From Patescibacteria group bacterium (GTDB lineage: Bacteria > Patescibacteriota > Minisyncoccia > Phycocordibacterales > UBA12088): a DNA stretch of 18,533 bases. This document shows, in pieces, positions 2,216 through 18,533 of the stretch. The notes beneath the pieces are model-generated. The model worked only from the letters and a program-made list of their open reading frames with translations. It searched no databases and was not told the DNA's origin. How positions within the stretch are numbered: position 1 is the first letter of the stretch; every line of letters begins with the position of its first letter. The translations under genes were made by a program, and so were the position numbers. The stretch is taken from contig WFWM01000035.1 in the NCBI GenBank assembly GCA_015491145.1, positions 1 through 18,533 of the forward strand, read 5' to 3'.

Positions 2216-2221
2216 ACTCTA
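2216..2221 (-). promoter_or_regulatory. -10-like box upstream of rarA
   Basis: On the minus strand TAGAGT ends seven bases before the rarA ATG, preceded by TGGCG. This spacing is the same as for the TGTG(G/C)TANNNT boxes elsewhere in the window, but the TGn extension is not exact. It would give an mRNA starting at or next to the start codon. Confidence 0.4.
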
Positions 2222-2248
2222 CGCCACCAATGGTTCAGCGCCAACCGG

Positions 2249-2259
2249 TGTGGTATACT
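2249..2259 (+). promoter_or_regulatory. extended -10 promoter (TGTGGTATACT) of the thioredoxin/dsbB/sigma unit
   Basis: TGTGGTATACT contains a near-consensus TATACT with the TGn extension. No good -35 hexamer is seen at 17 bases. The predicted transcription start (about 2266) leaves a leader of only about nine bases before ATG 2275, and it would exclude the GGAG at 2262-2265 from the mRNA. Confidence 0.65.
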
Positions 2260-2274
2260 CTGGAGCACAGGCCT

Positions 2275-2676
2275 ATGGCGCGAATGCGAACCTCTGCGAA
2301 AATTGCATGGCTGCTTGCTGGCGGACTCGTGATAGGAGCTCCGTTGCTGTACTGGGGGTACGTAATGAGCCAGCCTCATCCACTCGACGGGTTTGCGCAA
2401 TGCCTTGCCGATCGGGGCGCCACCTTCTACGGAGCATTCTGGTGCCCCCGCTGCCGAGAACAGAAGGCGTTGTTTGGAAGGGCGCAACGGCTCCTCCCCT
2501 ATGTGGAGTGCTCACCGCCGAACCGGCAGGGACAGTATGCGGTGTGCCGCGAGGCGCAGGTGCGCGCCTACCCGACGTGGGTATTTGCAGATGGAACTCG
2601 GAGGGAGGGGGTGCTCTCGCTGCAGCAGCTTTCCGAAGCGACAGGCTGTGAACTTCCTCTTGGCTACGGATCATAA
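2275..2676 (+). CDS. membrane-anchored thioredoxin-fold protein (VKOR-partner type)
   Basis: A 133-residue protein with an N-terminal membrane anchor (about residues 8-31) and an extracytoplasmic thioredoxin-like domain. The active site is FWCPRC (C57, C60), followed by the LPYVECS stretch, C91 in VCREAQVRAYPTW with the cis-proline at P100, and C125. This matches the thioredoxin-like domain often fused to or encoded with VKOR-type thiol oxidoreductases, where it oxidises secreted substrates. Here the partner is a DsbB-like gene that starts four bases after the stop, so the two probably form one oxidising pathway in the envelope: this protein passes disulfides to substrates and is reoxidised by the membrane enzyme. 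ATG 2284 is an alternative start. Extra cysteines C43, C79, C91 and C125 may make further disulfides. Confidence 0.82.
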   Translation: MARMRTSAKIAWLLAGGLVIGAPLLYWGYVMSQPHPLDGFAQCLADRGATFYGAFWCPRCREQKALFGRAQRLLPYVECSPPNRQGQYAVCREAQVRAYPTWVFADGTRREGVLSLQQLSEATGCELPLGYGS

Positions 2677-2679
2677 TGT

Positions 2680-3258
2680 ATGCTCCCTTATTGGATGGAT
2701 TCCCTCGTGGGCGTCATCACCCTTGGCGCTGAGGTAGGGCTGGTTGCCGTTGTAGTACTCTGGTTCTTCCGCCAAGCGCTTCCAGGTGTGGAAGCGTTGT
2801 TTCAGCTTCTCGGTCAATGGTGGGCTGCAGGCGTTGCGGGAGTGAGCATTGCCGCAATTGTGATGAGCCTCATCTATGAGGCAGCGGGGTTTACTCCCTG
2901 TTTTTGGTGCTGGGTTGCGCGGGTATTTTTCTACCCTCTCCCGCTCCTGCTTGTCGTTGGGTGGTTCCGTCGCGAGCTACACTTGTTGGCGCCGTACGTG
3001 CTCGCGTTTTCCATCGCCGGCCTCGTCGTCACACTCTACCAGCATCTCCTTCAAATGGGCATGGCCCAGCCGGGCGTCTGCGTGGCACTCGCGGGTGATG
3101 ATTGTTCCGTCCGTTGGTTCTTTGAACTGGGGCACATTACGTTCCCATGGATTGGGGTTGTGATGTTTGGCTGGTTTGCCTTCCTCGCTTTCCTCGCGCT
3201 CCGCACTCCCTCTCAGCCTCGGACAACGCACCATGTCGCACCAACGACGAACACCTAA
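2680..3258 (+). CDS. dsbB: DsbB/BdbC-like disulfide bond formation membrane protein
   Basis: A 192-residue protein with four to five predicted membrane segments (about 10-30, 50-68, 80-96, 104-124, 152-174). The first cysteine pair lies in TPCFWCW (C74, C77) before RVFFYPL, equal to the PCxxCxxxRxxxYPL pattern of the DsbB family. The second pair, C134 and C142, lies in the following outer loop, and GHITFPWIGVVMF matches the last-helix signature. Such enzymes pass electrons from a thioredoxin-fold oxidase to quinone. The start lies four bases after the preceding stop, so the two genes are one unit. ATG 2695 is an alternative start. The final 26 bases overlap the start of the sigma factor gene, pointing to translational coupling. 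Confidence 0.87.
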   Translation: MLPYWMDSLVGVITLGAEVGLVAVVVLWFFRQALPGVEALFQLLGQWWAAGVAGVSIAAIVMSLIYEAAGFTPCFWCWVARVFFYPLPLLLVVGWFRRELHLLAPYVLAFSIAGLVVTLYQHLLQMGMAQPGVCVALAGDDCSVRWFFELGHITFPWIGVVMFGWFAFLAFLALRTPSQPRTTHHVAPTTNT

Positions 3259-3805
3259 GGAGCTCCGCCGTCTCTCTGATACTGAACTCATCTGCCTTGC
3301 GCGTCGGCATAGGGAAGCGTTTGGAGAGCTCTACCGTCGGTACCGTGCTCGGGTCGAGGCATTCGTACTCCGTCTCACCAACGGAGATAAGGAGCTGGCG
3401 AGGGATATCACACAGGAGACCTTCCTCCGCGCGTTTCGGGTGTTCCACCGATACCGGCCGAAGACCGACTTCCTCTATTGGCTGTTTGCGATAGCGCGGA
3501 ACCTAGCAGTGAGTCGCTTCCGTCGAGTGAGGCGGACGGTGCCGTTGGAGGAAGCGCTCGCTCACACGCATGCGCTCCACACCGCTGCTCCACCAACGCT
3601 GGAGGTGGAGCGCGCATGGTTCCTGCAGAGGCTTGCCGCAGCAATCCGTCTCCTTCGTCCTCGCGAACGGGCGGTTGTTCGGGAGCACTACCTCTACGGC
3701 AAGCCGCTTGCGCGTATTGCGCAGGAATGGGGGGTGAGCGAAAACGCGGTGAAGCTCCTTCTCTCCAGAACACGGCGGAAAGTGCGCCATCTCCTTAATC
3801 TCTGA
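3233..3805 (+). CDS. ECF-type RNA polymerase sigma-70 family factor
   Basis: A 190-residue sigma factor with region 2 (about residues 25-95: EAFGELYRRYRARVEAFV, then DITQETFLRAF, then WLFAIARNLAVSRFRR) and region 4 (about 128-188: LLRPRERAVV, then LARIAQEWGVSENAVKLLLSRTRRKVR, a helix-turn-helix that reads the -35 element). Regions 1 and 3 are missing, as in ECF sigma factors. The start at 3233 gives the normal family length and overlaps dsbB by 26 bases. No anti-sigma factor with a membrane segment follows or precedes it; the neighbours are the thiol oxidase pair and hsp20. An inference is that it responds to envelope or protein-folding stress, perhaps sensed through the Dsb pair. The position alone does not prove this. 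Confidence 0.9.
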   Translation: MSHQRRTPKELRRLSDTELICLARRHREAFGELYRRYRARVEAFVLRLTNGDKELARDITQETFLRAFRVFHRYRPKTDFLYWLFAIARNLAVSRFRRVRRTVPLEEALAHTHALHTAAPPTLEVERAWFLQRLAAAIRLLRPRERAVVREHYLYGKPLARIAQEWGVSENAVKLLLSRTRRKVRHLLNL

Positions 3806-3868
3806 CACCTTTCACGCGCTGCAGCGTTTACCTTTACGGTCGATTACCAGCTTCGCGAGAGGCTAAGT

Positions 3869-4333
3869 ATGTGGCGTATGGTTCGGTTCCGTCGTGTTCG
3901 CCGAGGGGGTGATTGGCTCCTCGACCCGTTTGCAGCGCTTGAGGAGATGCGCTCCCTCGTGGAAGATGCGCTTGCCGGCTCGGGGGAAGAGAGCGGGCAG
4001 GTGGTGTTCCTCCCTCCGCTTGATCTCTCGGAAACGGACACCCACCTCATTGCCCGGCTCGAGCTGCCGGGAGTTGACCCGAAGGCGGTGAAGGTAGAGG
4101 CGACTGAGGACACCCTCTCCGTCTCCGGGGAAGTGAAGAATGAAGCGGAGGAGAAAGGGGAACAGTTCTATCGTGTTGAGCGGCAGTACGGATCCTTTGA
4201 GCGGACCGTGAGCCTGCCGGTGCCTATCAACCCTGAGTCGGTGGAGGCTTCCTATAAAGACGGTGTACTCACCATTCGAATGGAGAAGAAGCAGCAGACG
4301 AGCAGGAAGCAGATCCAAGTGAAGATAGACTAA
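3869..4333 (+). CDS. hsp20: small heat shock protein, Hsp20/alpha-crystallin family
   Basis: A 154-residue ATP-independent holdase that keeps unfolding proteins soluble in the cytoplasm. A basic N-terminus (MWRMVRFRRVRR) leads to an alpha-crystallin domain at about residues 48-143, with LIARLELPGVD, LSVSGEVK, YGSFERTVSLP and the signature DGVLTIRMEK (131-140). A short tail ends in an I-x-V pair (I149, V151) that normally docks between dimers. GAGAGG six bases before ATG 3869 is the likely ribosome binding site; ATG 3878 is an alternative. The 63-base gap to the sigma gene contains no copy of the TGTG(G/C)TANNNT element, so it is either co-transcribed with the sigma factor or uses another sigma factor's promoter. 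No CIRCE inverted repeat is present. Confidence 0.93.
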   Translation: MWRMVRFRRVRRGGDWLLDPFAALEEMRSLVEDALAGSGEESGQVVFLPPLDLSETDTHLIARLELPGVDPKAVKVEATEDTLSVSGEVKNEAEEKGEQFYRVERQYGSFERTVSLPVPINPESVEASYKDGVLTIRMEKKQQTSRKQIQVKID

Positions 4334-4337
4334 GGGT

Positions 4338-4348
4338 TGTGGTACGAT
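4338..4348 (+). promoter_or_regulatory. extended -10 promoter (TGTGGTACGAT) of the clpC-like gene
   Basis: TGTGGTACGAT starts five bases after the hsp20 stop codon. The predicted transcription start is about 4355, where the leader hairpin begins. No -35 match is clear. This lets the Clp gene be expressed apart from hsp20. Confidence 0.6.
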
Positions 4349-4355
4349 AGGCGCA

Positions 4356-4409
4356 CCCTTGAGGTGCGCAGCAGGAGGGCTCCCTCCCTTCTGCTGAGCC
4401 TCTCAAGGG
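4356..4409 (+). promoter_or_regulatory. structured 5' leader hairpin of the clpC-like mRNA
   Basis: An outer stem pairs CCCTTGAG (4356-4363) with CTCAAGGG (4402-4409). An internal loop of five bases on each side follows, then an inner 11-bp stem CAGCAGGAGGG (4369-4379) with CCCTTCTGCTG (4386-4396), containing one G-U pair and a six-base loop. An alternative 7-bp stem, GCGCACC (4351-4357) with GGTGCGC (4363-4369), shares the outer bases and would compete. No U-tract follows, so it is not a canonical terminator of hsp20. The gene's own ribosome binding site (AAAGGA at 4426-4431) lies outside the stem, while the SD-like AAGGGAGG at 4405-4412 is partly inside it. A role in mRNA stability or in sensing temperature is possible but unproven. 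Confidence 0.6.
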
Positions 4410-4439
4410 AGGTAGTTATTGGGCTAAAGGAAATGGAGT

Positions 4440-7169
4440 ATGGCACAGCAGATGTGTGATGTGTGTCAACGCCGCCCGGCGGAAATAATGGTTACCGTGA
4501 TCCGCAATGGGAGGCGGGAGGTGCAACATTTGTGCCGCTACGATTACGCAGCGCTCCGTGAACGGCAGCGAGGGATGTCTCCTTTCGCTTCGCTTTTTGG
4601 AGGGCTGGGGGGCGATCCTTTTGACGACGACATTCTTGGGGCAGAAGGGCTTGAGGCGCTGGCGAGCAAGCTCGGTTTCCCAATCCCACGCCATCGGGAA
4701 GGGATGAGCCTCGATCAGCTCCTCACCTCAGAGGCGAAAGAGTACATCGAGAAGGCGGGACAGTATGCGGTGGAGCGAGGCATGCAGGAGGTGGATACTG
4801 AGCACCTGCTGTTTGTCCTCCTCAAGCATCCCGTGGTGCTCTCCATCCTTCAGGCGGCAAAGGTAGAGGTAGACCAGCTCGCTCAGGCTATTGAGCGGGA
4901 GGCACCGAAGGGGAAGGCAAAGGAAGGTGTGCGAGAAATTCGCGTCTCGCCACGGGTTAAGTTTGCCCTTGAGGAAGCCGTGCGCTTTGCGCGGGAGTTG
5001 GGGCACGACTATGTCGGGCCGGAGCATATTCTCCTCGGGCTTGCTGCGGAGGAAGAGGGCCTTGCTGGTATCTTGCTGCGGAAAGCTGGAACCAACGCGG
5101 ACCAACTCCGGCAAAAGACCATCAAGGTGGTCGGAAGGGGCGCCGGAGAAGGTCGTGCAGGCAAGAAGAGCCCGACACCCACCCTCGACCAATACTCACG
5201 AGATCTCACGGAGCTTGCGCGGCAGGGCAAGCTTGATCCGGTGATCGGGCGTGCGGAGGAGATAGAGACAACCATTGAGATTCTCTCTCGCCGGACAAAG
5301 AACAACCCCGTGCTCATCGGGGAACCCGGTGTCGGGAAAACGGCGATTGTGGAAGGGCTCGCCCAGCGGATTGTCGCGGGGGATGTGCCGGAGGCACTGG
5401 AAGGGCGTCGGGTTGTTGAACTCAACCTCAACGCTCTCGTTGCCGGCTCAAAGTATCGGGGAGAATTTGAGGAGCGCGCGAAAAAGATTCTCGATGAGAT
5501 TCGCGACCAATCCGATGAACTTATCCTCTTCATTGATGAGCTCCACACCATTATGGGCGCCGGTGCCTCTGAAGGCGGCTTGGATATTGCTAACACCTTC
5601 AAACCGGCGCTCGCACGGGGAGAGCTCCATCTCATTGGAGCGACGACCCTCAATGAGTATCAGAAGCACATTGAGAAGGACCCGGCGCTCGAGCGGCGTT
5701 TCCAGCCCGTCTTTGTCGCAGAACCGACGGTTGAGCAGACGATTGAAATCCTGCGCGGGCTGCGGGATCGCTACGAGGCGCACCACAAGGTGGAGATTAC
5801 CGATGATGCGATCGTTGCCGCTGCGGAACTTTCTGACCGCTACATAACGAACCGATTCCTTCCCGACAAAGCCATCGATCTTGTCGATCAAGCGGCGGCA
5901 CGGGTGCGCATCCTCGCATCAATGGAAAACAAGGAGCTTGCCGATCTCGAGGAACAGCTTCAGGGGCTGAAGAAGGAGCTTGCAGCTGCACAAGCGCACA
6001 AGGACTTTTCGCAGGCAGGGAAGCTTGAGCGAAAAATTGCGAAGCTCGAAGAACGCCGAAAGGCGCTGGAGGAAGAGTGGCAGAAGGTTCGTTCCACTAC
6101 GACGCCGCAGGTTACGAGGGAGCATATTGCGCAGGTCGTATCGCGCCTCACCGGCATTCCGGTAGCAGAGTTGACGGAGGAAGAACGGGAGCGCTTGCTG
6201 AAGCTTGAGGAGCGCATTCACGAACGTATCGTTGGGCAGGAGGAGGCAGTACGTGCCGTTGCCAATGCGATTCGTCGTTCGCGAGCCGGCATCGCACGGG
6301 CGAACCGCCCGATTGCGACCTTCCTCTTCCTCGGCCCGACGGGGGTGGGGAAGACGGAGCTTGCAAAAACCATTGCGCGGGTGGTGTTTGGCGACGAAAA
6401 TGCGATGGTGCGACTCGATATGAGCGAGTATATGGAACGGTTCGCTGTCTCCCGTCTCGTGGGAGCGCCCCCGGGATACGTCGGCTACGAAGAAGGCGGG
6501 CAGCTCACCGAACCGGTGCGTCGCCGTCCCTACACCGTTGTCCTGCTTGACGAGATCGAGAAGGCGCATCCGGATGTGTTCAACATTCTCCTGCAGGTGT
6601 TCGACGACGGGAGGTTGACGGACTCGAAGGGGCGAACGGTGGACTTCACCAACACCATCATCATTGCCACTTCAAACATTGGATCAGCAATGATCCTCGA
6701 CAACCAGCGGAAACCGGAGGCGGACCGCCTCTCCTACGATGCTCTACGCGAGAAGCTCCTTGCAGAGCTGCGGATGACCTTCCGACCGGAGTTCCTCAAC
6801 CGGATTGATGAGATTATCGTGTTCCATGGCCTCACGAAGGAGGAGACACGTGCCATTGCAAAGCTCCGACTCGAGGAAGTGGCTCGGCTCGCCCATGGGC
6901 AGGGAGTGACGCTCTCCTTTGACGATTCACTCGTTGACCACCTCGTGGAGGTTGGCTACAGTCCGGAATTTGGGGCTCGCGAGCTCAATCGGGCAATCCA
7001 ACAAGAGGTGGAGAATGCGCTCGCCCGGTGGATGCTCAGCGGAGAAATTCGTGAGGGAGATTCGGTCGTGCTGCGGTACGAACCAAAGAAAGGGGTGGTG
7101 TTCTCGAAACAAGCATCGACTCCATCTGCTGCTCCCTCGCGGAAGGCCGGAGCTCGCAAGCGATCGTGA
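4440..7169 (+). CDS. clpC: Clp ATPase (ClpC/ClpE-like AAA+ unfoldase) with N-terminal zinc-finger-like domain
   Basis: A 909-residue hexameric protein unfoldase with two AAA+ rings. Order: a zinc-finger-like lead (C6, C9, C32, then D35 where ClpE and McsA have a fourth cysteine), a Clp_N double repeat (about 95-230), AAA1 with GEPGVGKT (about 294-301) and FIDELHTIMGAG, a short coiled-coil middle domain with a UVR-like KDFSQAGKLERKIAKLEERR (about 520-539), AAA2 with GPTGVGKT (about 632-639), VVLLDEIEKAHPD and SNIGS, and the C-terminal small domain. The middle domain is of ClpC, not ClpB, size. The loop after SNIGS lacks the [LIV]-G-[FL] tripeptide by which ClpC docks on ClpP, so its protease partnership is doubtful. 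AAAGGA at 4426-4431 fits ATG 4440. It follows hsp20 but has its own promoter and leader. Confidence 0.93.
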   Translation: MAQQMCDVCQRRPAEIMVTVIRNGRREVQHLCRYDYAALRERQRGMSPFASLFGGLGGDPFDDDILGAEGLEALASKLGFPIPRHREGMSLDQLLTSEAKEYIEKAGQYAVERGMQEVDTEHLLFVLLKHPVVLSILQAAKVEVDQLAQAIEREAPKGKAKEGVREIRVSPRVKFALEEAVRFARELGHDYVGPEHILLGLAAEEEGLAGILLRKAGTNADQLRQKTIKVVGRGAGEGRAGKKSPTPTLDQYSRDLTELARQGKLDPVIGRAEEIETTIEILSRRTKNNPVLIGEPGVGKTAIVEGLAQRIVAGDVPEALEGRRVVELNLNALVAGSKYRGEFEERAKKILDEIRDQSDELILFIDELHTIMGAGASEGGLDIANTFKPALARGELHLIGATTLNEYQKHIEKDPALERRFQPVFVAEPTVEQTIEILRGLRDRYEAHHKVEITDDAIVAAAELSDRYITNRFLPDKAIDLVDQAAARVRILASMENKELADLEEQLQGLKKELAAAQAHKDFSQAGKLERKIAKLEERRKALEEEWQKVRSTTTPQVTREHIAQVVSRLTGIPVAELTEEERERLLKLEERIHERIVGQEEAVRAVANAIRRSRAGIARANRPIATFLFLGPTGVGKTELAKTIARVVFGDENAMVRLDMSEYMERFAVSRLVGAPPGYVGYEEGGQLTEPVRRRPYTVVLLDEIEKAHPDVFNILLQVFDDGRLTDSKGRTVDFTNTIIIATSNIGSAMILDNQRKPEADRLSYDALREKLLAELRMTFRPEFLNRIDEIIVFHGLTKEETRAIAKLRLEEVARLAHGQGVTLSFDDSLVDHLVEVGYSPEFGARELNRAIQQEVENALARWMLSGEIREGDSVVLRYEPKKGVVFSKQASTPSAAPSRKAGARKRS

Positions 7170-7186
7170 GGGATGGAAATGATGGA

Positions 7187-7224
7187 CACACCACTCCGCC
7201 GGCGTGCGCCGGCGGAGTGGTGTG
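7187..7224. repeat. perfect 17-bp inverted repeat between the clpC-like gene and DUF2585
   Basis: CACACCACTCCGCCGGC (7187-7203) is followed by the four-base loop GTGC and the exact reverse complement (7208-7224). It starts 17 bases after the clpC-like stop. No T-run follows on either strand, so it is not a canonical intrinsic terminator, although the stem is strong enough to pause polymerase or protect a 3' end. Its right arm runs into the TG of the DUF2585 promoter and covers the place of a -35 box, so an operator role is also possible. Confidence 0.85.
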
Positions 7225-7231
7225 CTAAAGT
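7221..7231 (+). promoter_or_regulatory. extended -10 promoter (TGTGCTAAAGT) of the DUF2585/polX unit
   Basis: TGTGCTAAAGT ends four bases before ATG 7236 and seven before ATG 7239. Transcription would start on the start codons, giving a leaderless mRNA. Its first four bases are the end of the 17-bp inverted repeat. Confidence 0.55.
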
Positions 7232-7235
7232 GGGA

Positions 7236-7787
7236 ATGATGCGCCTGCGCGTGCCAGTGTGGTGGGTGGGGGCAGCCCTCTTTACGCTCCTTACTGCGCA
7301 ATCTCTCGCGCTTGCGGCCCTTGGCCATCCATGGGTCTGCAGCTGTAGTTTCGTCAAGCTCTGGCACGGCGCCGTGGATACGCAAAACTCGCAACACCTG
7401 TTCGACTGGTACACGTTCTCCCACATCGGGCACGGCATCCTTTTTGCCGCGGTAACCCTACTCCTGCGTCGGGTGCACGCATATGCACGCGCAATTCCCT
7501 GGTCTGTCTGGCTTGTGGGGTGGGTTGCTGTTGAGGCTGCGTGGGAGGTGTTTGAGAACACCCCGCAAATCATTGCGCTGTATCGTACGAATCCTATCTC
7601 TCGGCACTATTTCGGTGATAGCGTTATCAACTCCCTCGGTGATACACTAGCTATGATTGTGGGATTTGCGGTGGTGCGACGTTGGGGGTTGATAGTCGGG
7701 CTTGTGCTCTTGGGAGGGATGGAGCTCTTTACCTACCTTGCCGTTGGCGATTCGCTCACGCAGAATATTCTCTTCTTTCTCTCCTAG
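7236..7787 (+). CDS. DUF2585 (UPF0314)-like membrane protein
   Basis: A 183-residue membrane protein with about five segments (about residues 7-25, 59-78, 86-104, 134-152, 154-180). The conserved pattern is clear: HPWVCSCSFVKLWHG, NSQHLFDWYTFSHIGHG, WEVFENTPQII and YFGDSVINSLGDTLAM. It is rich in His, Asp, Asn and Trp at the membrane surface, which suggests an enzyme or a metal site, but the family has no known function that I can name. The frame opens at 7173, but those bases are the inverted repeat, so ATG 7236 (or 7239) directly after the -10 box is the better start. No Shine-Dalgarno sequence stands before it. The polX start is three bases after its stop, so they are probably co-transcribed. 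Confidence 0.78.
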   Translation: MMRLRVPVWWVGAALFTLLTAQSLALAALGHPWVCSCSFVKLWHGAVDTQNSQHLFDWYTFSHIGHGILFAAVTLLLRRVHAYARAIPWSVWLVGWVAVEAAWEVFENTPQIIALYRTNPISRHYFGDSVINSLGDTLAMIVGFAVVRRWGLIVGLVLLGGMELFTYLAVGDSLTQNILFFLS

Positions 7788-7790
7788 CGT

Positions 7791-9578: not shown

Positions 9579-9596
9579 GGTCGATGGTGGAGGTGT

Positions 9597-9607
9597 TGTG
9601 GTAGGGT
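9597..9607 (+). promoter_or_regulatory. extended -10 promoter (TGTGGTAGGGT) of the 442-residue unknown gene
   Basis: TGTGGTAGGGT ends seven bases before ATG 9615, so the mRNA would begin at about the start codon. The hexamer itself (TAGGGT) is a weak -10. Confidence 0.5.
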
Positions 9608-9614
9608 AATAGGT

Positions 9615-10943
9615 ATGATGGAGCAGAGGGGCAAGGTGGCTGCGTCTCCTAGCGAGAAACTAACAGATGCTCCCTTTTCGATGAAGGATCGGAAGGGGTT
9701 CCGGGGGTATGGCTCCGTGGCATTACAACAGCTTCTGGAGGAATCTGGAGGACGACTCGCATTGAGTCGTGAGATTCAACCAGTCTCGTTCCCTTTTCCC
9801 CAACTCTTTGACGAGTACCCCTTTCACCCCATTACAGAAGAGTGGATAGTGCACGGAGAAGCGCTTCCAGTTCCTTTTGCGTTCTTTCAAGGGGAAGGGA
9901 AGGAGCGGGGTAGGCCGTTTCCTGCTACGCAAGCGGAGGAAGCACTCCTCCTGCTCCTGCTGCTTGAAAGCAGCGGGTTGCAGCGGCTGTGGGAGATGGT
10001 AGGAAAACCATTGTTTCACCAAGTGCAAAAGATGCTTGAAGAGCCAAGAACTTTTCGCGAGCAAAACAACATCCTTCTTCTGCAGATATGGCAGCAGTTG
10101 TTTTCATGCCTCACCACTCTTATGGATCACGTTGCCATACGAGGGAAGGTGCAGGAGGACCCCTTTATTGGGGAAGCGGTTCGCCTTCTGCGCCCTGCAG
10201 TTGTTGTGGTTCGCGATGATCCGGGATCGGTTGTTCAAGCACTCTTAGAGAAGAGGGTGTTTTCTCAGGAGTACGTGGAAGATCCTCGCGCTGATCTCTC
10301 CAAGAAAGGTAGCACCCCTTCTCTAGTTACTTTTTTCCATCTTGATGCGCCCTTCTGGTCTCTTTTTCGTGTTATTCGCGACCTTACCACTTCTGCGTTT
10401 GGCGAATTGTGTGCGCCTCAGTCCCGACTCGGTCGTTTCCAACCATACGCTTCTTTTCTCGTGCAGCGCCTTACCAGCATTCTGGAACAGGAGGGTGATC
10501 CGACCGTAGCGCAGCGTCTTAATGAGGGACGGATAGCTCTGACGCATCTGGAAGAAATTCTCACGCGGCGAGTTGCCGGTGTTGCGAGGATTCCTCCGAT
10601 ACTGCGTATCACTATGCAGGCAGCAGCTGCCTACAGCAAGACGATCAGCGGCGTATTTTCCTTTCTCTTTTCTCCTTTTCTTATCCAAGAGGGGAGACGG
10701 GAGAGGCAAGGAGCGAGGTTGCAACGGTGGAGCATACGCAATGTCCTCCTGCGCCACTTACCGGAGGAGTTGAGAGAGGGTGCGTTCCTGAAAGGAGTCG
10801 TTGATTTCGAAGGAGAACTGGAAGGTGTTGTTGGGGAGCTCATTTCCTTTTCCAATGAGAGAGGGATAAGGGGAGCTCGTTTCTTTCGGAGCGGCGTGCA
10901 TCGCAAAGGCTTCCATCTCGTCGCTGCAATTGGCCAGAGGTGA
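9615..10943 (+). CDS. hypothetical protein, unrecognised, probably soluble
   Basis: A 442-residue protein that I cannot place in a family. It has no signal peptide and no clear membrane segment apart from a run of seven leucines at about residue 110, inside a likely amphipathic helix. The middle is mostly predicted helical (LLLQIWQQLFSCLTTLMDHV; EQEGDPTVAQRLNEGRIALTHLEEIL), and a hydrophobic stretch near 350-362 (KTISGVFSFLFSPF) could be a buried helix. Codon choice is more AT-rich than in the conserved neighbours (for example T-runs near 10320-10380), which fits a lineage-specific or recently acquired gene. It has its own promoter-like element, and ATG 9615 and 9618 are both possible starts. 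It sits between polX and a baeRF-like gene, which says little about its job. Confidence 0.7.
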   Translation: MMEQRGKVAASPSEKLTDAPFSMKDRKGFRGYGSVALQQLLEESGGRLALSREIQPVSFPFPQLFDEYPFHPITEEWIVHGEALPVPFAFFQGEGKERGRPFPATQAEEALLLLLLLESSGLQRLWEMVGKPLFHQVQKMLEEPRTFREQNNILLLQIWQQLFSCLTTLMDHVAIRGKVQEDPFIGEAVRLLRPAVVVVRDDPGSVVQALLEKRVFSQEYVEDPRADLSKKGSTPSLVTFFHLDAPFWSLFRVIRDLTTSAFGELCAPQSRLGRFQPYASFLVQRLTSILEQEGDPTVAQRLNEGRIALTHLEEILTRRVAGVARIPPILRITMQAAAAYSKTISGVFSFLFSPFLIQEGRRERQGARLQRWSIRNVLLRHLPEELREGAFLKGVVDFEGELEGVVGELISFSNERGIRGARFFRSGVHRKGFHLVAAIGQR

Positions 10944-10950
10944 GAGAGGT

Positions 10951-10968
10951 GATTTTGCGCCGCAAATC
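10951..10968. repeat. imperfect inverted repeat upstream of the baeRF-like gene
   Basis: GATTTTGCG pairs with CGCAAATC, with one bulged T and a minimal loop. It lies eight bases after the preceding stop and overlaps a TTGCGC that stands 17 bases before the -10 box, so it may be an operator-like site. It is too short and lacks a T-run for a terminator. Confidence 0.35.
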
Positions 10969-10972
10969 CTGT

Positions 10973-10983
10973 TGTGCTACGCT
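10973..10983 (+). promoter_or_regulatory. extended -10 promoter (TGTGCTACGCT) of the baeRF-like/VIT/glmS unit
   Basis: TGTGCTACGCT ends six bases before ATG 10990. A weak -35 candidate TTGCGC (10955-10960) stands 17 bases upstream. The predicted start site coincides with the A of the ATG. Confidence 0.55.
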
Positions 10984-10989
10984 TCCCCT

Positions 10990-11448
10990 ATGCGTATTCC
11001 AGGACATCTCCCGCAGTTTCCCGAAGGCGCGGTCATTGCCGCAATGGGCTCGGTGCACGGCAGGATTTGGCTGGCTCGGGAAGGCGGGGTAGAAGAGGTA
11101 AAGGAGCTTTCCCCGGAGTTTACCCATCGAACCGGAGAGGGGTTCTTCTGGACCGGCGGGAAAGGTCAGGTGTTTGCTAGTGGTACCCCAGAGGCGTTCG
11201 ATCAAGCGGCAGATTCGCACAAGTTCATCCACCTTTTTCTAGAGGAGATACTTCGCCTTGCAAAGAAGGAGCGGGTAGAGCGCATCTTCGTATTTGTTGC
11301 CCCTGAAGCCGCCGGTTACCTTGAAGCGCACATTCCCAAAGGTTTGCAGGGGAAGGTGGTCATTGTGGAACGGAAGAACTATGCCTCCTACCACGATCCT
11401 CTCTTCCTCATTGAGCGTATTGCCAACCGGCAAGAACCGGGAGCGTAG
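10990..11448 (+). CDS. host-attachment/baeRF-family-like protein
   Basis: A 152-residue soluble protein. The N-terminal strand VIAAMGSVHGRIWLAREGG and the C-terminal half follow the layout of the bacterial eRF1-like (baeRF, 'host attachment') family: a HKFIHLFLEEILRLA helix, an ERIFVFVAPEAAGYL strand and helix, an IPKGLQGKVV stretch, and a last helix (HDPLFLIERI). Members resemble archaeo-eukaryotic release factor domain 2 and are suspected to act at ribosomes. No GGQ motif is seen and the first half is divergent, so this is a fold-level guess. ATG 10990 is chosen because it stands at the predicted transcription start; the frame is open 60 bases further upstream through the promoter. It is followed after 11 bases by a metal transporter gene. 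Confidence 0.5.
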   Translation: MRIPGHLPQFPEGAVIAAMGSVHGRIWLAREGGVEEVKELSPEFTHRTGEGFFWTGGKGQVFASGTPEAFDQAADSHKFIHLFLEEILRLAKKERVERIFVFVAPEAAGYLEAHIPKGLQGKVVIVERKNYASYHDPLFLIERIANRQEPGA

Positions 11449-11459
11449 GTGGGGGTACT

Positions 11460-11978
11460 ATGCTGCAATGGGCGAGCCGCTATGTGGGGGAATTTGTCTA
11501 CGGTGCCAGTGATGGCATTATCACGACATTTGCCATCGTCACTGCTGCAGCGGGGGGAAGTCTTTCTCCCGGTGTGATTGTCGTGCTGGGGGTAGCGAAT
11601 TTGCTCGCGGATGGATTCTCAATGGGCGCCTCGAGCTTTCTCTCGGCTCGCGCAGAAGCTTCTCGAGATGCAGAGACACAAGACATTTCCCTCCCTCTGA
11701 AGCGAGGGGTCGCTACTTTTGGTGCGTTCGTGCTTGCTGGCTTGCTTCCCCTCCTTCCCTACCTTGCCGTGCAAAGCGCTGCCCCCGTCTTTCCCTTGGT
11801 GATTTCTGTTGCCGCTACCCTTGGGGCACTCGCTGTCGTTGGGGTGGGAAGGGCGCATCTTGCAGGAGAGCCAATAAGCCTTGCGGTAGTCGAGATGGTG
11901 ACGGTTGGAGGGATGGCTGCTGCGATTTCCTACGGGGTCGGGTGGTTCCTGCGCGCTATCGTTGGGGTAGGGGTGTAA
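11460..11978 (+). CDS. short VIT1/CCC1-family metal (Fe2+/Mn2+) transporter
   Basis: A 172-residue membrane protein with five predicted segments (about 12-32, 38-60, 83-103, 109-128, 143-167). The first two helices carry the family signature: FVYGASDGIITTFAIVTAA with D18, and LGVANLLADGFSMGASSFLSARAE with M55, which correspond to the aspartate and methionine lining the metal path in VIT1. In plant VIT1 a cytosolic glutamate-rich metal-binding domain separates helices 2 and 3. Here only about 20 residues (SARAEASRDAETQDISLPLK) stand there, so the regulatory or loading domain is absent. Such proteins export Fe2+ or Mn2+ against protons. The gene starts 11 bases after the preceding stop with GGTGGGGG as ribosome binding site, so they are one unit, and glmS follows. 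Confidence 0.85.
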   Translation: MLQWASRYVGEFVYGASDGIITTFAIVTAAAGGSLSPGVIVVLGVANLLADGFSMGASSFLSARAEASRDAETQDISLPLKRGVATFGAFVLAGLLPLLPYLAVQSAAPVFPLVISVAATLGALAVVGVGRAHLAGEPISLAVVEMVTVGGMAAAISYGVGWFLRAIVGVGV

Positions 11979-12009
11979 CGAACGTGGCGCCTTTGGCGTT
12001 GCGTGAGTG

Positions 12010-13848: not shown

Positions 13849-13859
13849 GGAAACTGCCC

Positions 13860-13870
13860 TGTGGTTTAAT
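13860..13870 (+). promoter_or_regulatory. extended -10 promoter (TGTGGTTTAAT) of the 487-residue unknown gene
   Basis: TGTGGTTTAAT ends eight bases before ATG 13879. GGGGAG at 13871-13876 could act as ribosome binding site, but it would lie upstream of the predicted transcription start. Confidence 0.55.
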
Positions 13871-13878
13871 GGGGAGTA

Positions 13879-15342
13879 ATGTTCCCTTCCTCGACAATCC
13901 CGTTGGCGAACGAGCGTTTCGTTGCCTACCTTTCCCGGGAAGGATCGCTTCAGAAACTTCTCCACAAGCACCCCACAGCTTTCGTTGTGCTGGGAGGCGC
14001 TGCGCCGATTATGCGTTGGAAGTGGGTGCGGGATGGTACAGAAATGCTACCCCACCTTTCATGGAAGAGGAAAGGAGAACAGAATGTCGTGCTGGAGGCG
14101 CAAACGCCTGATGCCGTAGCTGTGCTTCGCTACCAATGGCGCGATGCCCACACACTAGAACTTTCTTGGACCCTTGAGGAACGAATGCACGGCGCGATCC
14201 CTTCGCTCTTCCAGTGGGAGTTCGTCGGGCCAGCGGGGTCGTTTTGGGGAAACGGCGCGCTCTGGAACAGGGGATGGCGCATCGCGCCCTCTGGGAATGG
14301 TAGCGAAGGGATGGTCTGGGTCATCAAACCATCGCTTCGGCGGGTCGAGAGAGAGGAAGGTGCCGTAGTAGCTCAGGTGGAGGCGCGCACCCCAGGGAGA
14401 AAGCGGACCTCTGAAGGTGCACTTCGGTTGCAGATCGCGTATGCGGAAGGAGGAAGGGCGCCGCATCTTCGCAAGGATCCGTCAAAGCAGATGCGTGCCG
14501 CACAAGAACGGCTGAGTTCTCGTCTTGCGTCGCTCAGCACCCCAGCACCGGTGCGATCGCTCATCGAAACTGCTCGGATCTGGCTTACCTCCCATCGCGG
14601 GCCGAATGGGGCTTTCCATTTCCCTTACACGGGTGTTCCGGATCCTGTGGTGAGTGCCCACCTTGCCTACCTCCTCCTGGGGGACCGCCGGTACACCGAA
14701 GCGGCATCCACCGCTGCTGCAGCGATCGAGCTCTTGCCTCGTGCTCCTGAGTCGGCACAGTTGCAGGCGCTCGGCTACCTCGCTGCCTACCTGCAACTGG
14801 CGAAGAGCCGGCGGACTGCCAATCGAATTGCGGCAGTCTTTCCGCATGCATTGCTTCGGAAGGTCTCGGTAGATCGCATCTCCTCGAATGTGTCCCGCCT
14901 CATTCTTTTGGGGATGGCGCTTACTGCTGGTGAGGCTACGGCAAGGTGGGAAGGGGGACGATCGTTCCCTCTGGAGTGCTACCGCACGTCGCTGGAGTCA
15001 GTGCAAAAGAAACTCTTTTCCCTGCTGCCATCCGTTTCCGTGAGAGAGCACGCTTCCGTGCTGGAAGGTGTGGCAGTGGGGGTGCTTTCACGAGCAGACC
15101 ATCGCGTGCAAGGCGTGCTCCGGCGGATCCAAGAGGAGGCACAGGATCATAATCCCTTAGCGGCGGTCTTGAGCGCGGCGCTCCTTGGTGAGACGGCGAC
15201 GGCTCGCCAAGCGCTTATACGGTTTGCGCTCGAACTACCGTCTTTTCCAAGTGATCCAGTGGCAGCGATCGCGACGAGCCGTTGGGTGTGGGATGTTGCG
15301 CTGCGCTGTTGGGGGAGGGGTGATGGAGTTCTGCTACTATAG
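13879..15342 (+). CDS. hypothetical two-domain protein, unrecognised
   Basis: A 487-residue protein without signal peptide or membrane segment. The first half (about 1-200) looks beta-rich (alternating hydrophobic strands such as NVVLEAQTPDAVAVLRYQW and TLELSWTLEER). The second half (about 215-480) is helical, with repeated aromatic/alanine helices (SLIETARIWLTSHRGPNG, VVSAHLAYLLLGDRRYTEAA, LQALGYLAAYLQLAKSRR). A beta-sandwich followed by an alpha/alpha array recalls glycoside hydrolases of the glucoamylase/trehalase type, and the PNGAFHFPYTGVPDP stretch sits where such enzymes bind sugar, but I see no firm catalytic acid pair and do not claim the function. It has its own promoter-like element. 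Its stop codon overlaps the -10 box of the next gene. Confidence 0.7.
   Translation: MFPSSTIPLANERFVAYLSREGSLQKLLHKHPTAFVVLGGAAPIMRWKWVRDGTEMLPHLSWKRKGEQNVVLEAQTPDAVAVLRYQWRDAHTLELSWTLEERMHGAIPSLFQWEFVGPAGSFWGNGALWNRGWRIAPSGNGSEGMVWVIKPSLRRVEREEGAVVAQVEARTPGRKRTSEGALRLQIAYAEGGRAPHLRKDPSKQMRAAQERLSSRLASLSTPAPVRSLIETARIWLTSHRGPNGAFHFPYTGVPDPVVSAHLAYLLLGDRRYTEAASTAAAAIELLPRAPESAQLQALGYLAAYLQLAKSRRTANRIAAVFPHALLRKVSVDRISSNVSRLILLGMALTAGEATARWEGGRSFPLECYRTSLESVQKKLFSLLPSVSVREHASVLEGVAVGVLSRADHRVQGVLRRIQEEAQDHNPLAAVLSAALLGETATARQALIRFALELPSFPSDPVAAIATSRWVWDVALRCWGRGDGVLLL
15330..15340 (+). promoter_or_regulatory. extended -10 promoter (TCTGCTACTAT) of the SH3 protein gene
   Basis: TCTGCTACTAT lies inside the last codons of the preceding gene and ends eight bases before ATG 15349. 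The TGn extension is exact; the first TG of the consensus reads TC. Confidence 0.5.
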
Positions 15343-15348
15343 AGATGT

Positions 15349-15960
15349 ATGGCGCAGGAACAGCAGTTCGAAGGAGCACCCTCACCGCAGCGGGCGTTTG
15401 TGCCGGTGGGAGGAATACGGAGAAGGGAGCACCACACTCACTCACCGGATCAAAAGAAAGAGGGGAGCCTCCATCTCCCTCCAAAGCCGAAACGACGCCT
15501 CTTCTCTCGCTTTTCTCTCGCGTACACGCTGCTGCTTGTGGTGGCGGTTACCCTCACAGGAGGCGGGCTCACATGGATCGTAGTGACAACTCCCCGCTGG
15601 CTCGCGGCGCAGCCTCCCCAGCAGGAGCTCTCGCCAGAAGCCCGGGATGTTCTTGCGGCGGTAGAGCGGCAAACTGATCCTTCTTATCAGCAGGAAAAGC
15701 GGGCGCCGGCAGCAGTTTCCTCAACTTCCCCTCAACAGGCCGGGCAGGAGAGAAAGCCGAGTGTCCGTATTCTCTCCACCGAAACCGGCTGGCTCAATGT
15801 GCGGGAGGGACCTTCCACGCGATACCCCAGAATCGGGAGAGTGTTGCCGGGCGAGGTGTACCCCTTCCTTGAGCAGCAGAGTGGGTGGTATCGCATCGAC
15901 TTGGGGGAAGGAAAAGCCGGGTGGGTTTCCGGCACCTATGTGCGAGAGGTAGAACGATAG
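15349..15960 (+). CDS. membrane-anchored bacterial SH3 domain protein
   Basis: A 203-residue protein with a basic, His/Pro/Arg-rich cytosolic N-terminus (1-54), one membrane segment (about 57-80), a Gln/Glu/Pro-rich linker (81-137) and a C-terminal SH3b domain (138-203) on the outside. The domain shows SVRILSTETGWLNVREGPSTRYP, IGRVLPGEVYPFLEQQSGWYRIDL and KAGWVSGTYV, the normal SH3_3 pattern. Such domains bind peptidoglycan stem peptides or other wall parts, so it may tie the membrane to the cell wall. No catalytic domain is attached. It stands alone between the unknown 487-residue gene and the convergent antiporter, whose stop is 15 bases away; no terminator separates them. Confidence 0.88.
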   Translation: MAQEQQFEGAPSPQRAFVPVGGIRRREHHTHSPDQKKEGSLHLPPKPKRRLFSRFSLAYTLLLVVAVTLTGGGLTWIVVTTPRWLAAQPPQQELSPEARDVLAAVERQTDPSYQQEKRAPAAVSSTSPQQAGQERKPSVRILSTETGWLNVREGPSTRYPRIGRVLPGEVYPFLEQQSGWYRIDLGEGKAGWVSGTYVREVER

Positions 15961-15975
15961 AGGGAAGGGTGGTGT

Positions 15976-17343
15976 CTACTTCGTTTCCTTCACGAGACCG
16001 AGTGATCGGGCGATCCATGGGGTGATCGGCGGCTCGAGGGTCAGGGTAAGGAGAATGACCCACATCCCGAGCGCGAAGAGGGTTTCTGCCGCAGGAATTC
16101 CGCTTGCGAGCGCAATGAGGAGGAGGACCGCAGGAATAGCCCCCGTCTCCCTCACAAATGAGAGGAAGGTGAGTTCCTGCCACGAAAACAACGCTCTAGC
16201 CCGAAGGGCCCACGGGGCCAAGGTGAGGAACACCACGAGGGGACGGACCACGAAGAGGAAAAAGAGGCCTGCGGCAATACCGATCGGAGCGAGGGTGAGG
16301 AGCGCAGAAAGCGGCGCGAGGGCACCAAGGAGGAGGAAAATGACCGGTTTGATGAATTTGTCGACAAACACCTCAAAGAAGTGGCGAGCTTCCTTTGAGG
16401 GGTGGGCCGCATCAAAGAGCAGGCCGGCAACGAATGCGGAGAGAAACCCTGAGCCCCCCACGAGGCTGCCGGCGGCAAAGGCGATAATGGGCACTGCGAA
16501 GAAGAGAGCGGGATCGAGGGTGATCGTGCGTCCCCGCGCCAGAAGCCGTTGTTGCCATTGGTCGAGGAACCATGCAGCGGCGATGCCGACGAGAGTCCCC
16601 CACATGATTTCCAACGCGAGGGCATCCACGGTATCCCGTTGGAGCACAACTTGAAACGCGTCACCCACAGAAGTGTAGCTTGCAGTCCCGGCGAGGAGAG
16701 TAACGATGAAGAAGCGGGAGAGGATGGATCCAGTGACATCGTTAAGGGCGCTCTCGGCGACGGCAATGTCCCGAATGAAGGGGCGTTTGAACGCGAGGCT
16801 CTTTAGCGCGGGAATGATGGCGGTAGGGTCGATGGATGCGAGGATGGCTGCGAGAATAACTACACTCACGACAGGGAGATTCACGGAGAAGAGTTCGGCG
16901 AGCCGACTAAGACCGAAAGCAAAGAGGAAAGCGGTGAGGACGGTTCCTACCACCGCGAGGGCTGCAATGGGAGCGAAGTAGCGTCGAAAATTCCTGAACG
17001 GCACCTCAATGCCGCCCCCGAACAGAACGAGCGCCGCGAGAAGCTGCACGAGAAATGCGAGGACCGCCGTGTCCTGGGTAAGAACGGTAAACACCGGCTG
17101 GAGTGCCATACCGAAGAAAATAGCCCATACGAAAGAGGGGATGATGGTGCGAGGGGCCACGGTATCGAGCACGAAGCCGAGGAAGAAAAGGAGGCCGAGC
17201 GCGAGGTAGATTCCCTCAGGAGGAGAGTGGAACAGAGTAAGCAGTGGAGGAAAAGTGTGTACGCTGTAAGAAAGGAGGAGTGCTGCACCAATGAGGGAGA
17301 GGTAGGGGAGGAAGGGGCGTATCGTGAGGATCAGCTGGTGCAT
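15976..17343 (-). CDS. CPA1-family cation/proton antiporter (NhaP type)
   Basis: A 455-residue protein with about 12 membrane segments, exchanging Na+ or K+ for H+ across the membrane. Key motifs: SIDPTAIIPAL (170-180), with the Asp of the family's DP pair at D172, AESALNDVTG (196-205), with the ExxxND signature residues E197, N201 and D202, and RETGAIPAVLL near the last helices. There is no C-terminal cytosolic TrkA-type domain, so gating by a nucleotide is unlikely; the protein ends just after its last membrane segment. ATG 17343 follows the stop of the AI-2E gene by five bases, so the two are one minus-strand unit. The substrate ion cannot be told from the sequence. Confidence 0.9.
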   Translation of the reverse strand: MHQLILTIRPFLPYLSLIGAALLLSYSVHTFPPLLTLFHSPPEGIYLALGLLFFLGFVLDTVAPRTIIPSFVWAIFFGMALQPVFTVLTQDTAVLAFLVQLLAALVLFGGGIEVPFRNFRRYFAPIAALAVVGTVLTAFLFAFGLSRLAELFSVNLPVVSVVILAAILASIDPTAIIPALKSLAFKRPFIRDIAVAESALNDVTGSILSRFFIVTLLAGTASYTSVGDAFQVVLQRDTVDALALEIMWGTLVGIAAAWFLDQWQQRLLARGRTITLDPALFFAVPIIAFAAGSLVGGSGFLSAFVAGLLFDAAHPSKEARHFFEVFVDKFIKPVIFLLLGALAPLSALLTLAPIGIAAGLFFLFVVRPLVVFLTLAPWALRARALFSWQELTFLSFVRETGAIPAVLLLIALASGIPAAETLFALGMWVILLTLTLEPPITPWIARSLGLVKETK

Positions 17344-17348
17344 AGCAA

Positions 17349-18404
17349 CTATGTATTGTGGTGGAGCGCGTCACGGTAGAGGTCGGTCATCACCCCTATC
17401 ATCGTTCGGGCGAAGGCGAAGGCGAGAGGGCCAAGCACGAACCCGCTGAGCCCAAAGGTGGCAATGCCTCCCAAAGTGGCGACGAACACGACAGGATCAG
17501 GTATCCCAAGGTCTCTCCCCACAAGGAGAGGACGCAGCACATTATCGATGACGCTAATTACCCCAACGCCTGCACCGAGCACGATTGTTGCACCAAGCCA
17601 GTTGCCAGTGAGAGCGAGCACCGCTCCAACAGGGGCCCAAATGATGGCGGGGCCTACAGAGGGAATGAGGGCAAAGAATGTCATAGCAATACCCCACAAG
17701 ACAGGAGCGGGCACGCCTGCAAGCCAAAACGCAACACCACCGAGTGCACCCTGGGCGAGCGCTACCGCGAGCGTCCCTTTGAGCACGGCTCGGGCAGTAG
17801 TAGCGAAGTCAGCGAAGAGGCGTCGCTCGTAGTGGTCTCCAAGGGGCAGGACATAGATGAGCCAATCGATAAGGCGCTTCCCATCTTTGAGGAAGAAGAA
17901 GAGAAGGTAGAGCATCACGGCGGTTTGCAGGAGGAAGGAGAACGTAAATTGGCCGGCTGCGACGAGGCTGTTGAGCACGAAGGCGGCAGCACCAGCGAAC
18001 GCCTCGCCAAGGCGACTGCTGATTTCACTTTCCGTGATGCCATACGGCGCAAGAAGTGAGGCGAGCCACTGCACTGCCGCCCCGACGGATCCGCTTGCGG
18101 TATTGTCGGATCCGCCTTGCGGGAAGAAGGAGGAGTACACCGCCATTGCCTCTCTCAGCGCGAGTCCTGAGACCAACACAAGCGGCACCACACCGACTCC
18201 CACCACGAGGAGCACACCGAGGGAAGCGGCGACCCAGCGGGCTGTGTGTCGCGCGAGCCATTCCACGAGTGGGTGGAGGAGAATCGCGAGGATGCCAGCC
18301 CACAACAGTGGCATGGCAAGTGGCAGCGCGGTCCATCCTGCAATGGCAATACTCCCGACGAGGAGCGCAAGGAGGAATCCCTCGCGGTAGTGGCGAAATT
18401 TCAT
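17349..18404 (-). CDS. AI-2E family transporter (UPF0118/PerM type)
   Basis: A 351-residue membrane protein with about seven to eight segments. The family marks are seen: LLWAGILAILLHPLVEWL in the first helices, FFFLKDG, then ALIPSVGPAIIWAPVGAV and SVIDNVLRPLLVG, followed by a last pair of helices ending GFVLGPLAFAF. Members include the quorum-signal exporter TqsA and sodium/lithium antiporters such as Halobacillus UPF0118, so the substrate is open. Co-transcription with a CPA1 antiporter makes a role in ion homeostasis more attractive here. The open frame begins 75 bases upstream, but ATG 18404 stands nine bases after a TATACT -10 box, while the longer start would cover that promoter. Confidence 0.88.
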   Translation of the reverse strand: MKFRHYREGFLLALLVGSIAIAGWTALPLAMPLLWAGILAILLHPLVEWLARHTARWVAASLGVLLVVGVGVVPLVLVSGLALREAMAVYSSFFPQGGSDNTASGSVGAAVQWLASLLAPYGITESEISSRLGEAFAGAAAFVLNSLVAAGQFTFSFLLQTAVMLYLLFFFLKDGKRLIDWLIYVLPLGDHYERRLFADFATTARAVLKGTLAVALAQGALGGVAFWLAGVPAPVLWGIAMTFFALIPSVGPAIIWAPVGAVLALTGNWLGATIVLGAGVGVISVIDNVLRPLLVGRDLGIPDPVVFVATLGGIATFGLSGFVLGPLAFAFARTMIGVMTDLYRDALHHNT

Positions 18405-18407
18405 ACC

Positions 18408-18418
18408 CGTGGTAGTAT
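18408..18418 (+). promoter_or_regulatory. extended -10 promoter (CGTGGTAGTAT) of the right-edge gene
   Basis: CGTGGTAGTAT ends 11 bases before ATG 18430. It overlaps the minus-strand TATACT box at 18414-18419 base for base, so the two promoters face away from each other at the same place. Confidence 0.5.
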
Positions 18419-18419
18419 A
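18414..18419 (-). promoter_or_regulatory. -10 box (TATACT) of the AI-2E/antiporter unit
   Basis: On the minus strand TATACT ends nine bases before the AI-2E ATG at 18404, which predicts a leader of about three bases. A TG stands three bases before it (TGCGA), not at the exact extended position. Confidence 0.55.
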
Positions 18420-18429
18420 TCGCATCGAT

Positions 18430-18533
18430 ATGGAGCGTTCGCAATCCCCACCGGCGTGTGAGCGAGAGGAAAAGGACACTCTCGTGCATGAACGATTCGC
18501 TGCGTACCGTCGCGAGGTGGAGGAGTGGTGGGA
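18430..18533 (+). CDS. start of an unidentified gene (cut by the window end)
   Basis: An open frame of 34 codons starting at ATG 18430 and running off the edge. The residues (MERSQSPPACEREEKD, then HERFAAYRREVEEWW) are charged and helix-like. I do not recognise the family from so little. Support for a real gene comes from the promoter box 11 bases upstream and from the divergent layout with the AI-2E gene, 25 bases away. Confidence 0.5.
   Translation, partial: MERSQSPPACEREEKDTLVHERFAAYRREVEEWW

Follow-up and report, generated by a model that had tools for sequence, protein, structure and literature searches.

What is the short box that recurs a few nucleotides (nt) before start codons in a small bacterial genome, and does it serve transcription or translation? 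The question is raised by an 18,533-nt stretch of DNA from a Patescibacteria group bacterium (the window, here meaning the whole stretch), which is the complete contig C35 of a 607-kb genome assembled in 84 contigs and 95.5% complete. The original prediction for this stretch had described the box, TGTG[G/C]TANNNT, as an extended -10 promoter element placed so that the messenger RNAs (mRNAs) of first genes would be leaderless. We consider it highly probable that a wider explanation holds as a whole, in which the box is a promoter, the mRNAs behind it are leaderless, translation starts without Shine-Dalgarno (SD) pairing, and UAUG marks the other starts. The housekeeping sigma-70 would recognize the box as its extended -10 element. 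For roughly one gene in four, chiefly genes without tight coupling to the one upstream, transcription would begin on the A of the ATG or 1 to 3 nt before it, and at tRNA genes the box would lie about 2 nt farther away, leaving a precursor end of 1 to 5 nt. Ribosomes would take the leaderless route on leaderless mRNAs and would start at inner or leadered genes, often no more than 20 nt past the preceding stop codon, by way of UAUG, with the U pairing with A37 of the initiator tRNA. They would select starts without SD pairing because the anti-SD sequence has decayed and SD signals are gone. Each of these elements is known singly; what looks new is their joint occurrence and how far it reaches across taxa. 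The box before tRNA genes, the loss of both SD and anti-SD, and the UAUG signature of inner genes had escaped the original prediction. The greater surprise lies in the order-wide anti-SD loss and in the UAUG pattern.

The box before coding genes and tRNA genes

Genome-wide counts cover 67 of the 84 contigs (564,215 bases), with contigs shorter than 3 kb masked. TGTG[GC]TANNNT occurs 100 times, against a mean of 10.0 in 40 first-order Markov genomes (maximum, 20); 89 of these boxes lie outside genes, 10 in a gene on the same strand, and 1 in a gene on the opposite strand. Gene starts were called with a purpose-built Markov caller that does not model upstream signals, giving 544 genes (461 ATG, 68 GTG, 4 TTG, and 11 open at a contig edge). 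With the offset defined as the distance in nucleotides from the last T of the box to the ATG, an ATG stands 6 to 9 nt after 52 of the 100 boxes (14, 14, 17, and 7 cases at 6, 7, 8, and 9 nt), where 0.55 was expected from the Markov genomes (maximum, 2). The genome-wide peak that the original prediction had proposed to look for is thus present at 6 to 9 nt, and it is absent from reversed sequence and from the Markov genomes. No peak was seen genome-wide for GTG or TTG at the box offsets, though these codons make up 72 of the 533 called starts. The box and its spacing are soundly beyond chance.

ARAGORN placed 43 tRNA genes in the genome. An expectation-maximization motif search of the 40 nt upstream of 42 of them, with random substrings of them as seeds instead of the motif already described, returned T-G-T/C-G-G/C-T-A-N-A/G-N-T within a 14-column motif that extends two bases beyond the last T; for 35 of the 42 genes, that T stands 8 to 11 nt upstream. 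Because tRNA genes have no ribosome-binding site and yet carry the box, the box acts on transcription. When the matrix trained on the tRNA genes was run over the genome, it gave 444 matches, compared with 183 in reversed sequence; at scores of at least 9, the matches with an ATG at offsets 6, 7, 8, and 9 numbered 27, 41, 31, and 22, against a background of about 5.9 per offset at 31 to 60 nt and 1, 2, 0, and 1 in reversed sequence. With the box before 35 of 42 tRNA genes, most tRNAs appear to have a promoter of their own.

The same matrix was used to count genes, each entered once, at a score of at least 6 and with an in-frame ATG at offset 6 to 9, offsets 26 to 29 serving as the control. The box was found at 129 of 533 genes (control, 10). 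Of the 86 genes in divergent orientation, 38 have it (control, 2 of 86), as do, among same-strand genes, 34 of 106 at gaps of 21 to 60 nt (control, 3), 20 of 110 at gaps above 60 nt (control, 5), and 17 of 148 at gaps of up to 20 nt (control, 0), the last being called inner genes here. Genes after an RNA gene (13 of 38) and genes at an edge (7 of 45) had it as well, both with a control of 0. Leaderless genes look common on these counts, but they would not be the rule even for first genes. The original claim that leaderless translation is the rule there is supported in part and too strong, with a box at 38 of 86 divergent genes and 129 of 533 genes overall.

At 37 tRNA boxes (offsets 7 to 15 searched), the sixth base after the last T is a pyrimidine in 27 cases and the seventh and eighth are purines in 25 and 29, from which we infer that transcription starts 7 to 8 nt past the box. 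An ATG at 6 to 9 nt would then mean a leader of 0 to 3 nt, and the tRNA precursors would carry about 1 to 5 extra nt at the 5' end. Leaderless transcription from extended -10 promoters, as originally predicted, is well supported at these predicted leader lengths. The promoter might also be real and leave leaders of about 5 to 15 nt, with the start site nearer the box or the true start codon downstream; this would suit two boxes of the window, at 2249 and 18408, with offsets of 15 and 11 nt, and several genome-wide matches whose called start lies 16 to 50 nt downstream, but it is unlikely in view of the genome-wide ATG peak at 6 to 9 nt and the purine at start position 7 to 8. Loss of RNase P as a source of leaderless tRNAs was rejected, since an RNase P RNA candidate is present (L094; contig C3, 7849 to 8231, minus strand) with an E value of 6e-29 and 90.9 bits, under the Rfam cut-off of 100.

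Extended -10 promoters of sigma-70 read TGN-TATAAT. The box resembles them in its TG one base before the -10 element, its TANNNT, and the weak or missing -35 element at mRNA genes, and it differs in having TGTG in place of TGN and in the -35 element that the tRNA promoters add. That element is TTGC, separated by a 17-nt spacer from the -10 element (T 0.71, T 0.47, G 0.60, C 0.55), and only a trace of it is seen in 132 leaderless-type promoters. The original statement that no convincing -35 exists therefore holds for mRNA promoters and not for tRNA promoters. A sigma-70 gene (contig C41, 54 to 740) encodes a protein with 55% identity to residues 375 to 599 of Escherichia coli RpoD, which we take to be regions 2 to 4, and the TG extension with TANNNT stands at a fixed position before both coding genes and tRNA genes. 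That the box works as a promoter is strongly supported, and this sigma factor would probably be the one that reads it.

The 16S rRNA tail and Shine-Dalgarno signals

The single 16S rRNA gene found in the source genome (L093; contig C81, 10946 to 12435, minus strand) is full length and keeps the helix-45 sequence, but it has no anti-SD sequence: its tail reads GGAATGGTTCCACA, where GGATCACCTCC is expected. A stem is possible immediately past the tail, formed by CCACATTG...CAATGTGG of the 3' flank. CCTCC is lacking in all 37 16S tails of the family and order, these being the fetched loci and so a part of the members; the tails were read at 32 of 35 loci with a first anchor (30 to 65 nt after it) and at L099, L125, L128, G011, and G114 with a looser one. 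The class, whose name Paceibacteria is our reading of the titles of matched records, was sampled with 188 genomes, giving 47 canonical and 23 eroded tails. Seven of the nine members of the own order in this sample are eroded, and the other 179 genomes include 16 eroded tails, spread over 11 families, and 46 canonical ones. A phylum sample of 286 genomes, which includes just 11 further class members outside the own order, gave 117 canonical tails and 10 eroded ones, all in the own order (10 of 12); the 263 genomes of other classes had 0 eroded and 114 canonical. A genome matching neither tail pattern may have an unassembled 16S gene or a different anchor. One member of the order, G233, has an eroded tail plus a canonical second tail (contig C6, 260 to 305), which resembles a Bacteroidota contaminant, and we presume that contamination of the bin is the probable cause. 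The tail pattern common to the source genome and its order also matches records named Parcubacteria (at least 80 loci, among the matches listed), and the taxa listed are Candidatus Nomurabacteria, Kaiserbacteria, Taylorbacteria, Zambryskibacteria, Lloydbacteria, Yonathbacteria, Adlerbacteria, Harrisonbacteria, and Staskawiczbacteria, with other Parcubacteria.

A changed tail could mean that the box is itself an altered SD sequence, its TGTGG pairing with the CCACA that lies past the altered 16S tail, and both the tail of the source genome and the SD-like spacing of 6 to 9 nt before the ATG agree with this. The same box, however, stands at a fixed distance before 35 of 42 tRNA genes, which are not translated; TANNNT and the initiator signals are features of promoters; inner genes mostly go without the box (17 of 148 have it); and the tails differ in other members of the order. 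An altered pair of SD and anti-SD was rejected on the boxes before tRNA genes, unless two look-alike boxes exist, and we regard it as extremely improbable next to a promoter.

With the box taken as a promoter, SD signals were counted separately. AGGAG, GGAGG, or GAGGT occurred at -20 to -3, compared with -40 to -23, in 9 vs 14 of 140 first genes, 15 vs 14 of 162 intermediate genes, and 15 vs 15 of 148 inner genes, classes that exclude 83 genes lying at an edge or following an RNA gene. These strict 5-mers equal their control in the source genome, and there is no clear SD signal. A looser score, at least 5 nt of AAGGAGGTGA, gave 32 vs 2 of 88 in 100 kb of E. coli passed through the same caller, superseding a 50-kb sample of 38 genes (8 vs 1) that was a weak control; starts taken from the longest open reading frame (ORF) gave 18 vs 4 of 72 in E. 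coli. Eight relatives, four of them with CCTCC, scored 2 vs 1, 7 vs 6, 6 vs 9, 7 vs 8, 1 vs 0, 3 vs 5, 3 vs 4, and 3 vs 2. Three 40-kb samples from other classes, too small at 12, 30, and 26 ATG genes, gave 1, 4, and 4 vs 0, 1, and 2. The class seems to have given up SD use before the anti-SD sequence was lost in some families, an order of events that this comparison suggests.

The median ratio of TATAATN{6,8}ATG to its reversed control was 2.54 in 22 eroded-tail genomes and 1.91 in 46 CCTCC genomes (P = 0.018), after the source genome (1 match vs 1) was dropped from the eroded group and G233 was kept there and excluded from the CCTCC group. Tight coupling of anti-SD loss to leaderless boxes was rejected on this modest difference. 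Loss of bS21 was likewise rejected as a cause: S21 matches (E value of at most 0.001) are present in 120 of 188 class genomes and in both tail groups, those above the cut-off numbering 53 of 188. Loss of S1 was rejected because a 439-amino-acid (aa) frame carries three S1-domain matches. Most members of the Candidate Phyla Radiation (CPR) have lost Era, a binder of GAUCACCUCC, according to PMC10582724. That loss would fit a freely drifting 16S tail.

U before AUG at inner genes

At inner genes of the source genome, 126 of 145 ATG starts have T at -1, compared with 20.5% of 2,034 internal in-frame ATGs and 19 of 72 GTG or TTG starts. Sorted by gap, with all start codons included, the counts were 16 of 17 at -4, 21 of 25 at 1 to 5 nt, 35 of 38 at 6 to 10 nt, and 50 of 55 at 11 to 20 nt. 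The initiator tRNA has the loop CTCATAA, in which A37 lies opposite U at -1. Positions -2 and -3 are mostly G/C in the source genome and A/T in AT-rich relatives, so that U at -1 is the sole shared base, and it could extend the pairing with the initiator tRNA to UAUG. Extended codon-anticodon initiation at UAUG was reportedly described by Esposito in 2003 for the chloroplast. The likeness lies in a U at -1 opposite A37 of the initiator tRNA (loop CUCAUAA); the difference is that here a genome-wide base preference is read from sequence and not from experiment.

The preference extends to relatives. Eight of them have T at -1 in 47 to 75% of ATG starts vs 7 to 33% inside genes, where E. coli has 24% vs 20%. 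At 79 of the 80 named loci listed, with starts taken from the longest ORF, T stands at -1 in 146 of 280 vs 28%, and in these 79 TATAAT-like boxes at offsets 6 to 9 precede 23, 14, 14, and 8 genes vs 2.2 per offset upstream. Inner genes of G183 (7 of 20) and G095 (9 of 26) are near background, so the strength of U at -1 varies, and 29 genes at 29 16S loci of the order showed no excess (9 of 29 vs 30% inside genes). The same base might instead be a nuclease or processing mark, polycistronic mRNA being cut at U|AUG so that inner cistrons become leaderless. This would account for T at -1 at gaps of -4 and 1 to 20 nt (16/17, 21/25, 35/38, and 50/55) and for the absence of a T preference at GTG and TTG starts (19/72). 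A cutting enzyme was neither sought nor identified, however, UAUG is unavoided inside genes (21% of internal ATGs), so that more context would be needed, and extended codon-anticodon pairing is the simpler account of the same base; we consider cutting improbable.

Several observations weigh against the explanation by promoter, leaderless mRNAs, and UAUG. The transcription start sites are predicted from sequence, the 16S tail is that of the gene, and the start codons are predictions of one purpose-built gene caller. Over half of the divergent genes have no box at 6 to 9 nt, and class members that keep CCUCC share the excess of boxes before ATG, so the box is weakly tied to anti-SD loss. The looser SD score leaves a slight excess over its control, reached upstream of 64 genes vs 47 among the 447 of the source genome and of 24 vs 13 among its 145 inner genes, and SD counts were 25 vs 18 of 253 in the four CCTCC-keeping relatives and 21 vs 12 of 280 at the longest-ORF starts of the 79 named loci among the matches listed. 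T at -1 is missing at gaps of -3 to 0 (0 of 3) and weak at -5 or less (5 of 10). The inner genes of the window are a poor example: the base at -1 is G at glmS (12010) and G, C, and C at dsbB, sigma, and polX, and VIT is the sole one of the five with T.

Mycobacteria that use leaderless mRNAs also use SD sites for other genes. Leaderless transcription was predicted with GeneMarkS-2 and StartLink in 21.6% of bacterial species and for up to 40% of transcripts (PMC9581028). The source genome resembles the genomes described there in a promoter signal directly 5' of the start codon and differs in having no standout SD signal and a lost anti-SD sequence. A paper on 16S rRNA without CCUCCU (PMC6107228) counts 128 taxids, with a concentration in Bacteroidetes, Mycoplasma, and Carsonella, and its main text contains "Parcubacteria" 0 times. 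An absent anti-SD and unrecognizable SD are shared features, and the difference is that the loss here is order-wide in Paceibacteria and accompanied by leaderless promoters and UAUG. According to two further papers, YchF is broadly conserved and promotes translation of leaderless mRNAs (PMC12641178), and Parcubacteria have lost the alpha C-terminal domain (PMC8321222). Anti-SD loss or leaderless promoters in Patescibacteria or CPR were not found described in the literature searched, seen in part and with subscription papers mostly outside its scope.

A more general proposal, which we put forward tentatively and hold slightly less probable than its opposite, is that Paceibacteria abandoned SD initiation for leaderless 5' ends or UAUG contact, after which a useless anti-SD eroded in several families and throughout one order, possibly with cuts at U|AUG. 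If true, a natural bacterial lineage would start translation without mRNA-rRNA pairing. Relatives with and without the anti-SD sequence, neither with clear SD signals in the sampled genomes, form a graded series in which the order of loss is testable. For annotation, software that relies on SD sites may put Parcubacteria starts in the wrong place, and the distance to the box together with U at -1 could correct them.

Boxes and hairpins of the window

All eight plus-strand boxes of the original prediction were recovered where it had placed them, five as exact TGTG[GC]TANNNT and three, as it had remarked, deviating, each by one mismatch. In 200 shuffles of the window the mean number of exact boxes was 0.33, and 5 was never reached. 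If a single mismatch is tolerated, 27 matches fall in the window vs 10.8 expected, so a lone degenerate box is credible only through its position. Seven of the ten boxes originally listed on both strands have an ATG at 6 to 9 nt when the better ATG is chosen, the exceptions being 2249, 18408, and the clpC box.

The exact box at 2249 to 2259 (TGTGGTATACT) has its ATG at 2275, an offset of 15 nt, and is predicted to give a short leader, not a strictly leaderless mRNA. Three further exact boxes on the plus strand lie at 7221 to 7231 (TGTGCTAAAGT; ATGs at 7236, 4 nt, and 7239, 7 nt), before a DUF2585 gene ending at 7787; at 9597 to 9607 (TGTGGTAGGGT; ATG at 9615, 7 nt, with another at 10 nt), before an ORF ending at 10943; and at 10973 to 10983 (TGTGCTACGCT; ATG at 10990, 6 nt), before a gene with a weak baeRF_family12 match. 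The boxes with one mismatch, also on the plus strand, lie at 13860 to 13870 (TGTGGTTTAAT; ATG at 13879, 8 nt), at 15330 to 15340 (TCTGCTACTAT; one ATG at 4 nt and a second at 8 nt, where at 15349 a 203-aa SH3-domain gene starts), and at 18408 to 18418 (CGTGGTAGTAT; ATG at 18430, 11 nt), before an ORF that leaves the contig end. The genes at 9615 to 10943 and 13879 to 15342, both with leaderless-type promoters, had no Pfam match. On the minus strand, TGCGATATACT at 18414 to 18424 lies 9 nt before the ATG at 18404 of an AI-2E transporter gene (17349 to 18404), and a -10-like TAGAGT without the TGTG extension at 2216 to 2221 lies 7 nt before the ATG at 2208 of an MgsA-type AAA gene (1003 to 2208). 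A degenerate plus-strand box without the last T, TGTGGTAAGGG at 703 to 713 (ATG at 721, 7 nt), had not been listed before. The plus box at 18408 to 18418 and the minus box at 18414 to 18424 overlap as divergent promoters over 18408 to 18424.

The exact plus-strand box at 4338 to 4348 (TGTGGTACGAT) lies 91 nt upstream of the clpC ATG at 4440. The first ATG past it, 84 nt downstream, is out of the clpC frame, and the clpC mRNA is predicted to be leadered. A long plus-strand hairpin occupies 4356 to 4409 of the leader (minimum free energy of 4355 to 4442, -41.2 kcal/mol; z, -3.2), and so stable a hairpin may be a regulatory leader. On the 3' side of clpC, a perfect 17-bp stem spans 7187 to 7224, and its final bases, TGTG, are also the first bases of the promoter box that follows. 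A T-run behind a hairpin likewise holds the start of the boxes of tRNA-Gly (contig C2) and tRNA-Arg (contig C15); at these sites terminator and promoter appear to be fused.

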